Shown here: positions 55,746 through 60,387 of the stretch, in pieces
Layout: each line of letters begins with the position of its first letter
Position numbering within the stretch: position 1 is the first letter of the stretch
Assembly (NCBI RefSeq): GCF_026016465.1
Contig: NZ_CP100390.1
Location: 682,001-746,000, forward strand
Source of the DNA: Alkalimarinus alittae
Lineage (GTDB): Bacteria; Pseudomonadota; Gammaproteobacteria; Pseudomonadales; Oleiphilaceae
Direction of reading: 5' to 3'
DNA: 64,000 nt
Translations under genes and position numbers: made by a program
The notes under the pieces: generated by a model
What the model saw: the letters and a program-made list of their open reading frames with translations, nothing else
The model's database searches: none
Told to the model about the DNA's origin: nothing

Positions 55746-56792
55746 CTATTTACTTCCCTTAGTTAAACACTCAATAGCGGCGCTAGAAGTATAGAATGAC
55801 GCTAAACGTCGTCTTAAAAGACCTTCGAGCTGACCGCTTTCTTTTAATTCCGATAAAACCTGAGGTGCAAATCGCTCAGTTTCTTCTTTGATTCGCTCGG
55901 GTGTCATCATAAAGTCATCAAACAGTACTTGTAGGGTATTGTCACCGTACTTATCAAAGAAATACTCTACGATTAGCTCATAACTCTGCTTGAAGTATTC
56001 TGACTTGCGAAAACGCAACCAGAACTCATAACCAAGTACCACAAACTCTGATAGATCAAGGCTGTCGATCCCTGTTTGAAGCTCGCCAAGCGATTTGCCT
56101 TCTACAAAGTCCCACAGGTCCATCGCTGATGTTTTAAGCTCTTCGTCGGTCATGTTGTTTTCAAGAAACGACTTACTTTCAGTGATGATTAAACCCAGGT
56201 TATTACTGATATAACTTTTGACGTTATCTTCAACAGCCCCTTCGAGTTTCGGCACTGTTTTGCTAATCATACTGCTGCCAAATTTCAGCATCGACGATAC
56301 ACCGGGTACCTTTTTACTGAGGATGTTGTTGTCGTATATATAGTTAACGATGGCTTGATAGAGCACGCCTGAAATAAGATCGGTATAGATGGGTAAATCT
56401 ATAATACGATTTAGCCCTTCTGTGCGCTGCTCCTGAAGTTCAAGTGCTTTATCGACAAACGCTTCAACTTCTTGGCTAGTGATTATTTCGTTAAGCCGCG
56501 TGTTTTTATGCTGCTCAGAGGTGAATAATTTTGTGGCTGCTTCACCGGCTATTTCGGCAATGCTGCCTGGAATTTCACGCTCAACCACATTTGAGTGAAT
56601 GGTCTCGTTGATAGACTGCTGAGTCACAAGCTGATTAAGCTTGAGTGTTTGTAGCCACTGAAAAACGGTTTCAGTTTCATCCTGAAGCCAGCTGATAAAC
56701 GTGGCGCTATCGAGTGCCGCTAGTTCATGCTGTATGTGAAGCTCTAGCAAGTTGTTTGCGATGTCTTCAGGAGAAAGAGTGCTTTTAGCCAT
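55746..56792 (-). CDS. Unknown protein in the desaturase operon, 348 aa
   Basis: A soluble, largely helical protein without signal or membrane segments. Visible pieces: PEDIANNLLELHIQHELAAL at the start, EIAGEAATKLFTSEQHKN, a less polar middle (IDLPIYTDLISGVLYQAIVN), and EFWLRFRKSEYFKQSYELIV late. I do not recognise the family. It starts 23 bp after the next unknown gene upstream and is apparently the last of four co-directional genes (ferredoxin reductase, desaturase, 108-aa unknown, this), so it may act in fatty-acid desaturation. Confidence 0.7.
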   Translation of the reverse strand: MAKSTLSPEDIANNLLELHIQHELAALDSATFISWLQDETETVFQWLQTLKLNQLVTQQSINETIHSNVVEREIPGSIAEIAGEAATKLFTSEQHKNTRLNEIITSQEVEAFVDKALELQEQRTEGLNRIIDLPIYTDLISGVLYQAIVNYIYDNNILSKKVPGVSSMLKFGSSMISKTVPKLEGAVEDNVKSYISNNLGLIITESKSFLENNMTDEELKTSAMDLWDFVEGKSLGELQTGIDSLDLSEFVVLGYEFWLRFRKSEYFKQSYELIVEYFFDKYGDNTLQVLFDDFMMTPERIKEETERFAPQVLSELKESGQLEGLLRRRLASFYTSSAAIECLTKGSK

Positions 56793-56815: not shown

Positions 56816-57142
56816 CTAAGACGGGTTATTGTCTTTTTGATTGTTCTTTGTCATGACTTCCGAGGCATGAGCGCTATCCTCAAGCGTAGCAAAATAATCG
56901 GAAGCCAGTTGGCCAATATTTTGATTTACGTCTCGGATTGCATCGTAAACTTTACTAGCAGAAAGGTCGTGCTTTTCTTTAAGCGAATTAAGTCGCTTCT
57001 CGTCTACAGCGCCTTGATTAAGAATGCTATAGCTGGTGTCTGCAATAACCGTGTGAACGCTTTCAACGGCGGTAACCGTGTTATCAATCGCGGTTTGTGC
57101 AACATCTTTGGCTAATTCTAAGCGTTGGAGTAGGGTTGTCAT
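56816..57142 (-). CDS. Unknown protein in the desaturase operon, 108 aa
   Basis: A soluble protein rich in Ala/Val/Thr, predicted helical: LLQRLELAKDVAQTAIDNTV, an AVESVHTVIADTSYSIL middle, and LSASKVYDAIRDVNQNIGQLA before an acidic-Asn-rich tail. A perfect AAGGAG site precedes the ATG. The amphipathic helices with heptad-like spacing recall phasin or apolipoprotein-like surface proteins, but this is only a resemblance. 33 bp downstream of the desaturase. Confidence 0.7.
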   Translation of the reverse strand: MTTLLQRLELAKDVAQTAIDNTVTAVESVHTVIADTSYSILNQGAVDEKRLNSLKEKHDLSASKVYDAIRDVNQNIGQLASDYFATLEDSAHASEVMTKNNQKDNNPS

Positions 57143-57175: not shown

Positions 57176-58270
57176 CTAACTGACAGACAGTGGCGCTGAC
57201 TTTTTAGGGGGTAGCGAATAGCGTGCAATTCTGGCTAGTACAGACTTGTACTGACGTCCAAATGACCCCGTGTTGTACGGTATATCATATTTTTTACATA
57301 GTTGTTGTACTTTGATCGCCATTTCTGGATATCTGTGAGACGGAATATCAGGGAACATGTGGTGTTCAATTTGGTAGCTTAAGTGTCCGCTCATAATATG
57401 CAGCCACTTACCACCGGTAAAGTTGCTAGAGCCTAATAGCTGACGATAATACCACTGGCCGCGCGTTTCATTTTTACATTCTTCTTCACTAAACGTTTGA
57501 GCATCGCCTGTGAAGTGACCACAGAAGATAATGGTTGATGTCCACAAGTTTCTGTTGAGGTTGGCCAGAAGGTTACCTGCAATCACTTTAGGTGCGCCGG
57601 GACCTGCAAGAGCGGGGAAAAACAAGTAGTCTTTTGCCACTTGCTTTGCGGCTTTTTTGCTAAAACGCTTAACAAAAGGGATCTTATCTTTCCAGCTGAT
57701 TTCGCCGCTTTTAATTCTATCTATTTCTAGTTCGTGAAGACCAACACCCCATTGGAAAAAAGCACTTAATACACCGTAATTAACCAGTTGGAATAAATGT
57801 CTTGGCTTCCAAGGTTCATCGTCAGTTAATCGCAGTACCGCGTAACCATAGTCGCGGTCTTTACCTAAAATATTAGTGTAGGTGTGGTGTTCAAAGTTAT
57901 GGGTATTACGCCATGATTCTGAGTCACAGACGGTATCCCACTCATAGCTTTGAGAGTTGAGTTCAGGATCGTTCATCCAGTCATATTGTCCATGCATCAC
58001 ATTATGGCCGATTTCCATATTTTCTAGAATTTTAGAAACCGATAACAAGCCTACACCTGCCGCCCATGAAAGAGGGTTAAGACCAAACTGTATCAGTGTG
58101 CGCCCCGCTATTTCGCTGTAACGTTGTTTTTTAATGATGCTGCGAATATGGTCGGCATCTCTCTGACCTAAATCAGCAAGCACTTCTTGGCGGAGTTGTT
58201 CGATCTCATTCCCAAAGTTTTCAAACTCTTGGTGGGTCAGGGTGTTGAGTGTACTTGTTTTCATGTCCAT
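57176..58270 (-). CDS. Fatty-acid desaturase (membrane, three His boxes)
   Basis: A 364-aa integral membrane di-iron desaturase. His boxes: HNVMH (89-93), HNFEHH (124-129) and QIEHH (300-304), with extra His in CGHFTGDA (252). The QxxHH third box is the type of the linoleoyl-CoA/front-end-like desaturases, as in Pseudomonas DesB. About four membrane helices. AAAGGA precedes the ATG. It needs electrons from the adjacent ferredoxin reductase gene upstream, 46 bp away. DesT-like operators upstream of the pair predict control by the saturated/unsaturated acyl-CoA ratio. Position of the inserted double bond cannot be read. Confidence 0.92.
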   Translation of the reverse strand: MDMKTSTLNTLTHQEFENFGNEIEQLRQEVLADLGQRDADHIRSIIKKQRYSEIAGRTLIQFGLNPLSWAAGVGLLSVSKILENMEIGHNVMHGQYDWMNDPELNSQSYEWDTVCDSESWRNTHNFEHHTYTNILGKDRDYGYAVLRLTDDEPWKPRHLFQLVNYGVLSAFFQWGVGLHELEIDRIKSGEISWKDKIPFVKRFSKKAAKQVAKDYLFFPALAGPGAPKVIAGNLLANLNRNLWTSTIIFCGHFTGDAQTFSEEECKNETRGQWYYRQLLGSSNFTGGKWLHIMSGHLSYQIEHHMFPDIPSHRYPEMAIKVQQLCKKYDIPYNTGSFGRQYKSVLARIARYSLPPKKSAPLSVS

Positions 58271-58316
58271 TAGCGTGTCCTTTCTGGTGTTCTAAAGCTT
58301 GTGTTGGCAATATGGT

Positions 58317-59438
58317 TTATAAATTATCGATTGATAAGTCGCCTACAGGTATCGATATACAAGCTTGAATATGGGTTTGGTCGCTGGGTATCAGTTCGCC
58401 TGTTAACTTGTTAAGCGCACGACCTGTATTTTTAGTGCATTTACACTCGTGGCAAATCCCGCTACGGCAGCCGTACTTGGGTTTTAGGCCAGCAGATTCG
58501 GCAAGCTCTAATAGTGTTTTGTCACCATTGGATGCAATGCTTTTACCTGAATTTAAAAAGCTTACTTGGCCTTTAGTGGATGATTTGATATTCGATAGAA
58601 CAGGTACGCCAAAGCTTTCTTGCAGAATATTCTTAGCGGCAACACCCAAGTCGTTGCTCTGTGTTTTAACCGACTCCATAAATTCGTGAGGGCCACAGAG
58701 GTAAATAGCGCGTGCCGAGATATCAGGGCAATCAAGTAATAATTGCTGTGCCGTGATATAGCCTTCAGATTCAGTAAAGTGAGGGAAGAATGACAAGTTC
58801 GGCATGCTAGACGCCAGTGCGTGCAGTTGTTTTTCAAAAATTAATGATGGCACATTATTGCTATAGTAAATGAGCGTAATAGGCTGCTGATGGTTTTCTT
58901 CTTTTATTTCGTTAAGCATCGAGAGTACAGGGGTAATGCCGCTGCCTGCTGCAATGAATAAAGGGTTAGCAGTAGGGCTAACAGTGGTTGAGTGGTTTAA
59001 CGTAAAGTCACCCGCGGCATTGCCAATAGTGAGGATGTCACCCACCTTTAATCGCTCATGCAAGTGTGTTGATACACGTCCCCCATCGACTTTTTTAACG
59101 GTGATACTCACTAATTGCTGTTCTTTGAATATCATTGGCGCATTTGAGAGGGAGTAATTGCGGCGTAATGTGACACCGTTTATCTCTACTTCAACATTAA
59201 TATACTGGCCTGCTTTAAAACCCGACCATCGGCTTGAAGGTCGAAGGATAAACGTCTTGGTATCGGCCGTTTCATTGACTATTTTGGTGACTTCAGCGGC
59301 ATTACGCTTAATGCTGAACATAGGGTCTATTTCAGTTAACAAAAAATCAAAGTATGTTTGAAGAGTCCCTTCTTGTTGCCAAAACCTGGCTGCAAGAGCA
59401 GTCATATAGTGTGAGGCGCTAGATAATGGGTTTTGCAT
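58317..59438 (-). CDS. Ferredoxin reductase fused to 2Fe-2S ferredoxin, desaturase electron donor
   Basis: A three-domain redox protein of 373 aa: FAD-binding (LRRNYSLSNAPM), NAD(P)-binding (FIAAGSGITPVLSML and IYLCGPHEFM) and a C-terminal plant-type 2Fe-2S ferredoxin (YGCRSGICHECKC, with the fourth Cys in IQACISI). It passes electrons from NAD(P)H to the desaturase downstream. The best start is ATG 59438 with AGGA seven bases away; a TTG at 59474 has no site and would overlap operator A. It heads the operon. Homologous to Pseudomonas DesC by function and position. Confidence 0.9.
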   Translation of the reverse strand: MQNPLSSASHYMTALAARFWQQEGTLQTYFDFLLTEIDPMFSIKRNAAEVTKIVNETADTKTFILRPSSRWSGFKAGQYINVEVEINGVTLRRNYSLSNAPMIFKEQQLVSITVKKVDGGRVSTHLHERLKVGDILTIGNAAGDFTLNHSTTVSPTANPLFIAAGSGITPVLSMLNEIKEENHQQPITLIYYSNNVPSLIFEKQLHALASSMPNLSFFPHFTESEGYITAQQLLLDCPDISARAIYLCGPHEFMESVKTQSNDLGVAAKNILQESFGVPVLSNIKSSTKGQVSFLNSGKSIASNGDKTLLELAESAGLKPKYGCRSGICHECKCTKNTGRALNKLTGELIPSDQTHIQACISIPVGDLSIDNL

Positions 59439-59465
59439 AGAACGGTCCTGATTAAAATTCTTATA

Positions 59466-59483
59466 GGTGTACAAGTGTCCACT
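59466..59483. promoter_or_regulatory. DesT/FabR-type operator A
   Basis: Minus strand AGTGGACACTTGTACACC, 18 bp and largely palindromic; it matches the AGTGAACGCTTGTTGACT that I recall as the Pseudomonas DesT site at 13 of 18 positions. It ends 28 bases before the ferredoxin reductase start. Confidence 0.6.
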
Positions 59484-59506
59484 AATGTAGTGTAGAAGGT
59501 TGTCTC

Positions 59507-59524
59507 AGTCAACACCTGTACACT
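59507..59524. promoter_or_regulatory. DesT/FabR-type operator B
   Basis: Minus strand AGTGTACAGGTGTTGACT, matching the recalled DesT operator at 14 of 18 positions, the best of the three. Its centre lies 41 bp from that of operator A, about four helical turns, so the two face the same side of DNA. Confidence 0.7.
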
Positions 59525-59686
59525 AAAAAATCTATAAACTGAGACTTTAAGCATACGAGGCTATATAAAACGGTAGGTTGACGAAGTGGTATGTGGCCAT
59601 AAGGGGCATTTTAATCCCTATATGGCATTAAAATAATGTAGTATGTGTAAATATAGGGTCCAAAGATCGTGTATCTATTTTTTATT

Positions 59687-59704
59687 AGTGTACGGTTAGA
59701 CACT
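59687..59704. promoter_or_regulatory. DesT/FabR-type operator C, near the regulator gene
   Basis: AGTGTACGGTTAGACACT, 18 bp with AGTGT/ACACT arms, about 60 bases before the regulator start; consistent with autoregulation. The gap 59525-59686 between B and C shows only AT-rich sequence, no gene. Confidence 0.55.
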
Positions 59705-59763
59705 TAGTTAGGGCTTGTAAATACAGTGTTAGGGCTTGTGAATACAATTATCGGAATTTATTA

Positions 59764-60387
59764 ATGCTAAGCAGAGAAGATAAAAAGCGCCAAACGAGAC
59801 GATCATTAATGGATGCTGCTCTGATGTTGGTCGGTAAGGGGGGGAACTTTTCGAGTATTAGTCTACGAGAAGTCGCAAAAAATGCGGGGGTTGTACCTAC
59901 CTCTTTCTATCGACACTTTACCGATATGGAAGAGCTTGGCCTCAGTCTAGTGGACGAGCTCGGTATGCTATTAAGAAAGCTGATGCGATCGACTCGCCAG
60001 AACAACGGAGGGGTTGATGGGCTTATTCGTAGTTCAATTGATGTGTATGTCGATTTTGTCATCCAGCATCCTAATCATTTCTATTTTTTGTCACAAAGTA
60101 GAACCGGTGGCACACACCCGCTACGCAACGCGATTCGTAATGAGTTAAAGTTTTTTGCTAATGAACTCGCTTCAGATATTCGCCAATCATCCATGCTACC
60201 TAATGTTGGACGTCTCGATTTAGATATGATTTCAGAGTTAATTGTAGCGACGGTGGCTGAAACGACTATTGATATTCTGGATTTGACTGAAGCCTCGCCG
60301 AGTTATCGGCAAGAGTTTGTCGAGCGAACCGAAAAGAAACTTAGGCTCGTGTGGCTAGGTGCCGGTGTTTGGCGTTCACCTGAGTAA
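59764..60387 (+). CDS. FabR/DesT-type TetR regulator of fatty-acid unsaturation
   Basis: A 207-aa TetR protein clearly homologous to E. coli FabR: KRQTRRSLMDAALMLVG, then SLREVAKNAGVVPTSFYRHF (recognition helix nearly identical to FabR) and DMEELGLSLVDELGMLLRKL, DVYVDFVIQHPNHFYFL. Such regulators bind acyl-CoA or acyl-ACP and adjust unsaturation. It diverges from the desaturase operon over 325 bp containing three matching operators, the DesT layout of Pseudomonas. No ribosome site is strong at ATG 59764. Whether it is the FabR or the DesT orthologue cannot be settled by eye. Confidence 0.93.
   Translation: MLSREDKKRQTRRSLMDAALMLVGKGGNFSSISLREVAKNAGVVPTSFYRHFTDMEELGLSLVDELGMLLRKLMRSTRQNNGGVDGLIRSSIDVYVDFVIQHPNHFYFLSQSRTGGTHPLRNAIRNELKFFANELASDIRQSSMLPNVGRLDLDMISELIVATVAETTIDILDLTEASPSYRQEFVERTEKKLRLVWLGAGVWRSPE

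Follow-up and report, generated by a model that had tools for sequence, protein, structure and literature searches.

A probable DesT-type control unit with paired operators at the putative desC promoter of Alkalimarinus alittae

Genes and operators at the desT-desCB locus

The stretch of DNA considered here, termed the window, comprises 64,000 nucleotides (positions 682001-746000) of the one-contig, 4.25-Mb genome of Alkalimarinus alittae (NCBI RefSeq assembly GCF_026016465.1, contig NZ_CP100390.1), a gammaproteobacterium whose closest named relatives are metagenome-assembled genomes of the Oleiphilaceae. Within the window, a gene encoding a desT-like regulator of the TetR family (207 amino acids; 59764-60387, plus strand), recognized by its PDB match, its score against a FabR model and its position in a tree, is divergent from a reductase-desaturase operon. 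The first gene of this operon, desC-like (58317-59438, minus strand), encodes a ferredoxin/FAD/NAD reductase with the Pfam domains FAD_binding_6, NAD_binding_1 and Fer2; an ATG at 59438 is its preferred start codon, the alternative TTG at 59474 being one that would overlap an operator described below (operator A). The second, desB-like (57176-58270, minus strand), encodes a membrane fatty-acid desaturase of 364 amino acids that scores 101.4 bits against Pfam FA_desaturase (cut-off 29.7) and presents three histidine boxes (HNVMH, HNFEHH and QIEHH) in its translation; against the NCBIfam DesB model it scores 33.5 bits, far under the cut-off of 500. From ATG to ATG, the gap between desC and desT is 325 bp.

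Candidate operators, each of 18 bp, were scored by the number of matches to 14 positions of the DesT-type palindrome AGTGTACnnnnGTACACT. Three sites of 12/14 were found: operator A (59466-59483, minus strand), operator B (59507-59524, minus strand) and operator C (59687-59704, plus strand), the last separated from the start codon of desT by 59 bp. The divergent layout with three operators agrees with the original prediction. These are the sole sites of at least 11/14 within the window, and all three fall within 239 bp between the two divergent genes. The agreement of B with a DesT operator at 14 of 18 positions, also predicted, was recovered by a hand count of its minus strand against the operator of a genome (L187) that encodes a DesT identical to that of PDB entry 3lsj. 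With a helical repeat of 10.5 bp, the distance of 41 bp between A and B amounts to 3.9 turns, and this same-face pair, anticipated likewise, is conserved as far as Pseudomonas.

The putative desC promoter is interleaved with these two operators. The last six minus-strand bases of B constitute a conserved putative -35 box, TTGACT (59507-59512, minus strand), which is followed after a 17-bp spacer by a putative -10 box, TACATT (59484-59489, minus strand), assigned by promoter scanning and comparison with relatives. Operator A begins at the next base and thus abuts the -10 box, at the expected start of transcription, such that the spacing of the pair is given by 18 + 17 + 6 = 41.

Conservation of the operator pair and identity of the regulator

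Conservation was assessed with 91 regulators, viz. that of the window, 61 relatives and 29 from two further searches, of which the 36 with a reductase in divergent orientation no more than 1.6 kb away are referred to as linked; the rows are partly redundant, the proteins of L027/L146 and L032/L083 being identical and those of L030/L031 nearly so. The 400-bp upstream regions of the linked regulators hold 74 sites of at least 11/14, compared to a mean of 0.60 and a maximum of 24 for 300 permuted palindromes, and a site of at least 11 was found with 15 of the remaining 55 regulators. An operator pair 40-43 bp apart, or about four turns, precedes 24 of the 36 linked regulators, and a pair 20-21 bp apart, or about two turns, precedes another eight. 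The individual spacings of neighboring sites are 40 bp (six), 41 bp (11), 42 bp (one) and 43 bp (six), together with 21 bp (seven) and 20 bp (one). With 25 genomes of the Pseudomonas genus that holds L035, which overlap in part with the 36-row set, 23 matches were obtained and 21 of these have the pair at 41-43 bp. Among the 21 is the L187 genome, in which the encoded DesT is identical to 3lsj at 100% of 201 residues and the two operators are spaced by 43 bp.

The promoter elements follow the operators in both spacing classes. Read along the desC strand, B ends in TTGACT in every one of the 21 Pseudomonas pairs and in 23 of the 24 pairs spaced by 40-43 bp; along the regulator strand it reads AGTCAAC. 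In the eight rows at 20-21 bp, read by eye, the -35 box (TTGACA in six, TTGACG in one and TTGCCC in one) stands upstream, and the first operator contains the -10 box, TACATT or TACAGT, which follows TTGACA after 17-18 bp in six rows. Sequence comparison therefore suggests that in both classes core promoter elements are embedded in operators and that the dimers would be kept about two or four turns apart. In the tree, the rows at 20-21 bp lie inside one clade of 10 rows, together with L152 and with L153, whose pair is 40 bp apart.

Of the 24 rows whose pair is 40-43 bp apart, 11 have a third site of at least 10/14 on the regulator side, equivalent to C, and in seven of these it scores at least 12; none of the 11 is a Pseudomonas or Alcanivorax row. 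Such a site is also present at L025/L143 and L026, loci without desCB. Autoregulation, a further element of the original prediction, is hence plausible through C but would be limited to this lineage, and the promoter scan recognized no desT promoter near the site.

The regulator had been described as a homolog of FabR or DesT, and this can be narrowed to DesT-type. Its top match in the PDB is DesT (3lsj; E-value 9.9e-37, compared to 6.3e-05 for the runner-up), with a moderate similarity of 130 bits. It also exceeds the cut-off of the FabR model NF008402 (168.7 versus 151 bits). However, a separate protein of the genome (G000:C1:1675438), which groups with FabR-type rows of relatives in the tree, fits that model far better at 299.4 bits, and for this reason the assignment is narrowed to DesT and the regulator rejected as the FabR of this genome. 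Strict orthology with the 3lsj DesT is not established by the tree, where 3lsj and the Pseudomonas rows are positioned across the midpoint root from the window regulator, and the tool warned that long branches meet. The recognition helix is nearly identical to that of DesT (VPTSFYRHF versus VPAGFYRHF). A Val residue precedes its conserved Pro in 34 of 34 readable desCB-linked regulators (two were unreadable and L085 was left out), and an Ala residue occupies this position in 28 FabR-type rows; this difference tracks the type of site, yet it equally tracks plain phylogeny.

Predicted repression of desCB and its alternatives

Given this organization, it is likely that the locus constitutes a local control unit of the DesT type, in which dimers on A and B would block the desC promoter in a manner tuned by acyl-CoA while C would damp desT. 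One TetR-family repressor dimer is proposed to occupy each 18-bp palindrome, which would place two dimers at the desC promoter, separated by about four turns and facing the same side of the helix. The dimer on B would cover the -35 box and that on A the start site, and the two, perhaps cooperatively, would jointly exclude RNA polymerase from the operon desC-desB(-orfX-orfY), the last two genes of which are described below. By analogy with P. aeruginosa DesT, from which both DNA binding and ligand sensing are extrapolated, binding would be strengthened by unsaturated and relieved by saturated acyl-CoA, and desaturase would be made when saturated chains predominate; opposite responses of P. aeruginosa DesT to saturated and unsaturated acyl-CoA are described in two reports (PMC10634369, PMC3536700). 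Repression of desCB and autoregulation of desT would be the consequences. Such a scheme provides a testable promoter model, with the -35 box in one operator, the start site in the other and two dimers in helical phase.

The P. aeruginosa DesT-desCB system (PDB 3lsj, 3lsp and 3lsr) is the closest counterpart, likewise combining a TetR repressor with a divergently oriented operon for reductase and desaturase, an operator identical to B at 14/18 positions, a pair 43 rather than 41 bp apart, and TTGACT at the same place. It differs in that the A. alittae locus has the extra operator C at desT and two more genes behind desB. In addition, P. aeruginosa DesT binds the fabAB promoter, as stated in PMC10634369 and PMC3462791, whereas fabA-fabB is without a site here; the effect on fabAB in P. 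aeruginosa is modest and was treated as non-defining. FabR of Escherichia coli and other gammaproteobacteria belongs to the same TetR subfamily, as reflected by the score above the FabR cut-off noted earlier, but A. alittae has the better FabR elsewhere and no fabA-fabB site, and the outer half-site is T/A where that of FabR is C/G. A divergent regulator and desaturase are also seen with Shewanella oneidensis FabR-desA, where, according to PMC4273635, the operator begins at the mapped start; that system has one FabR-type operator rather than a pair, and its desaturase is of another kind and lacks a reductase partner (PMC4273635). As co-regulation of desABC by FabR in several gammaproteobacterial lineages is reported in PMC5343134, control of a desaturase by this regulator family is already known. 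DesT is not mentioned in PMC8041468.

Several observations weigh against the proposed unit. The gap between the divergent genes exceeds the 200 bp given in PMC3511530 as a rule of thumb for TetR repressors of divergent neighbors. The strength of one site alone is not distinctive and is at genomic background: with up to three mismatches, 12 matches were found in the window versus 11.9 expected from shuffles, and with up to two mismatches, 45 were found in the whole genome versus 49 for a reversed-pattern control. The promoter scan by itself was at chance (two found versus 2.0 expected), and a comparison that took only operators already holding GTTGACT gave poor -10 candidates for Pseudomonas (GATTTT, 3/6). 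Four of the 36 linked regulators are without a pair (L085, with sites 48 bp apart; L148 and L149, with no close pair; L163, with no site), two of the 23 Pseudomonas matches show no sites, and L153 has a pair at 40 bp without TTGACT. Single-site strength was accordingly rejected as proof of a regulon, matches being at background level. The original prediction had counted equally strong sites scattered at random through the genome against itself, and this is partly true of single sites but not of the cluster; the case for the operators is made by clustering (three in 239 bp) and conservation, since these exceed chance. Matches with one mismatch, eight rows in all, occur at six places genome-wide, A and B among them.

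Of the alternatives, the most substantial is that the spacing of 40-43 bp reflects promoter geometry only and not an interaction between dimers, a reading to which somewhat less than even weight is given. It is consistent with the arithmetic of operator, spacer and -10 box, exact in the window, by which B holds the -35 box and A abuts the -10 box. However, the class at 20-21 bp keeps two turns though no promoter element falls in its second operator, and L153 keeps 40 bp without TTGACT; helical phasing is also favored by these two observations.

It is less probable, and on balance unlikely, that the sites serve chiefly the FabR paralog, or both regulators, and that the adjacent regulator has another role. 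The FabR and DesT motifs are close, the genome does encode a strongly scoring FabR, and two sites elsewhere, one preceding a putative hydrolase gene and the other a second desCB operon (desCB2), score under both patterns. Nevertheless, the desC pair accompanies adjacent regulators of the DesT clade, and eight FabR-clade regulators of relatives (L166, L167, L002, L168, L169, L161, L162 and L163, the last placed in that clade by low identity only) are without such an upstream site. The Val/Ala distinction of the recognition helix likewise separates the two clades, and the FabR-type targets of this genome bear C/G-type half sites. Finally, activation of desCB by the regulator is highly improbable: TetR-family activators such as AtrA exist, as noted in PMC3511530, and the intergenic gap is above 200 bp, but A and B overlap core promoter elements as for a repressor, and the related P. 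aeruginosa DesT is a repressor according to PMC10634369.

The preferred reading, repression by a DesT-type regulator, would add marine bacteria associated with lipids and hydrocarbons to the known range of a structurally solved type of acyl-CoA-sensing repressor. The primary papers on DesT are reportedly Zhang 2007, Subramanian 2010 and Miller 2010. No description of a two-operator, promoter-embedded control region of desCB was found in the literature searched, and one may be published.

Companion genes and other candidate targets

While the switch itself is mostly ordinary, two genes behind desB may merit study. The probable third gene of the operon, orfX (108 amino acids; 56816-57142, minus strand), starts 33 bp after desB, and the probable fourth, orfY (348 amino acids; 55746-56792, minus strand), starts 23 bp after orfX; neither has a convincing family in PHROGs or Pfam. 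In relatives from which desCB has been lost at this locus, they are still found next to desT. At L025 (3480-3800) and L143, an internal deletion joins the start of desC to the end of desB, with the promoter, A and B, and orfX-orfY kept. These operators were considered as fossils, but they may still work because orfX-orfY remain behind that promoter. Both genes are also kept without desCB at L145 (genome G004); at L026, operator B with its -35 box stands directly before orfY, and at L152 orfY adjoins the regulator gene. The L025 regulator is identical in protein sequence to that of the same-genus genome G003, which has another copy of desC at a different place (L120), accompanied by one 13/14 site and a relative of orfX.

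At the Hahella, Alcanivorax and Pseudomonas loci, no orfX or orfY was found at an E-value of 1e-4 or below within the 1.2-1.7 kb past desB, a range that more distant genes would escape. Among plasmid-collection records, orfY has relatives of 23-26% identity in Acinetobacter, Gordonia and Tsukamurella, which adjoin genes for hydrolases, acyl-CoA thioesterase-like proteins or beta-oxidation; none was found in viral contigs.

Elsewhere in the genome, fabA (215 bits, cut-off 124) adjoins fabB (611.5 bits, just below the cut-off of 630). The original prediction had proposed a search for a site at these genes; no DesT-type site of at least 10/14 was found in the surrounding 18 kb (L123), and on this ground they were rejected as targets of the regulator. 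A scan with the DesT-type pattern, for which open reading frames were read at seven places besides the three window sites, and one that allowed up to three mismatches to the FabR-type pattern AGCGTACAnnTGTACGCT, which returned 18 places versus five in the control with genes read at eight, gave matches that were mostly inside genes.

The top DesT-type site in the whole genome (G000:C1:211587; L086:6588-6605) precedes a putative alpha/beta hydrolase gene adjoining a FadL-type gene; the translation has a GFSLGG motif and no Pfam or NCBIfam match. The site scores 13-14/14 in all five members of the genus and at least 11/14 in three of 13 other homolog rows. FabR-type sites precede a DesA-family desaturase gene (L170; G000:C1:28219), a plsC-like acylglycerol-phosphate acyltransferase gene (L171; G000:C1:436932) and desCB2 (L011; G000:C1:221034), the desaturase of which is 57% identical to that of the window; a lipase-like gene, 179 bp away, is also among the genes read. 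Such a site, at at least 12/16, precedes plsC in 10 of 16 homolog rows and three of five in the genus, and desA in five of 10 rows, comprising all five of the genus and none outside. In four of the five members of the genus the desCB2 site reaches at least 11/14; in three further genomes the nearest homologs are preceded by AGCGTAC-like sites.

These distributions raise the possibility, put forward tentatively and as somewhat doubtful, that control of unsaturated lipids in the genus is split, with FabR reading AGCGTAC-type sites (desA, plsC and desCB2), DesT reading AGTGTAC-type sites (the window desCB, or desCB1, together with desT and the putative hydrolase gene), and fabAB free of both. On this reading orfY, relatives of which stand next to lipid genes in Acinetobacter, Gordonia and Tsukamurella, and not the desaturase would be the most persistent partner of DesT, so that the unit may serve to handle or store acyl chains taken up from outside and not membrane fluidity alone; orfX, orfY and the putative hydrolase gene would be probable DesT targets. 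Two further sites were noted. A palindromic DesT-like site, TGTGAACAAATGTGCACT, lies approximately 340 bp before a gene that resembles, by translation, pyruvate dehydrogenase E1 (L015; G000:C1:849293), and a FabR-like site lies between a lipase-like gene and a gene divergent from it (L177; G000:C1:2291528).

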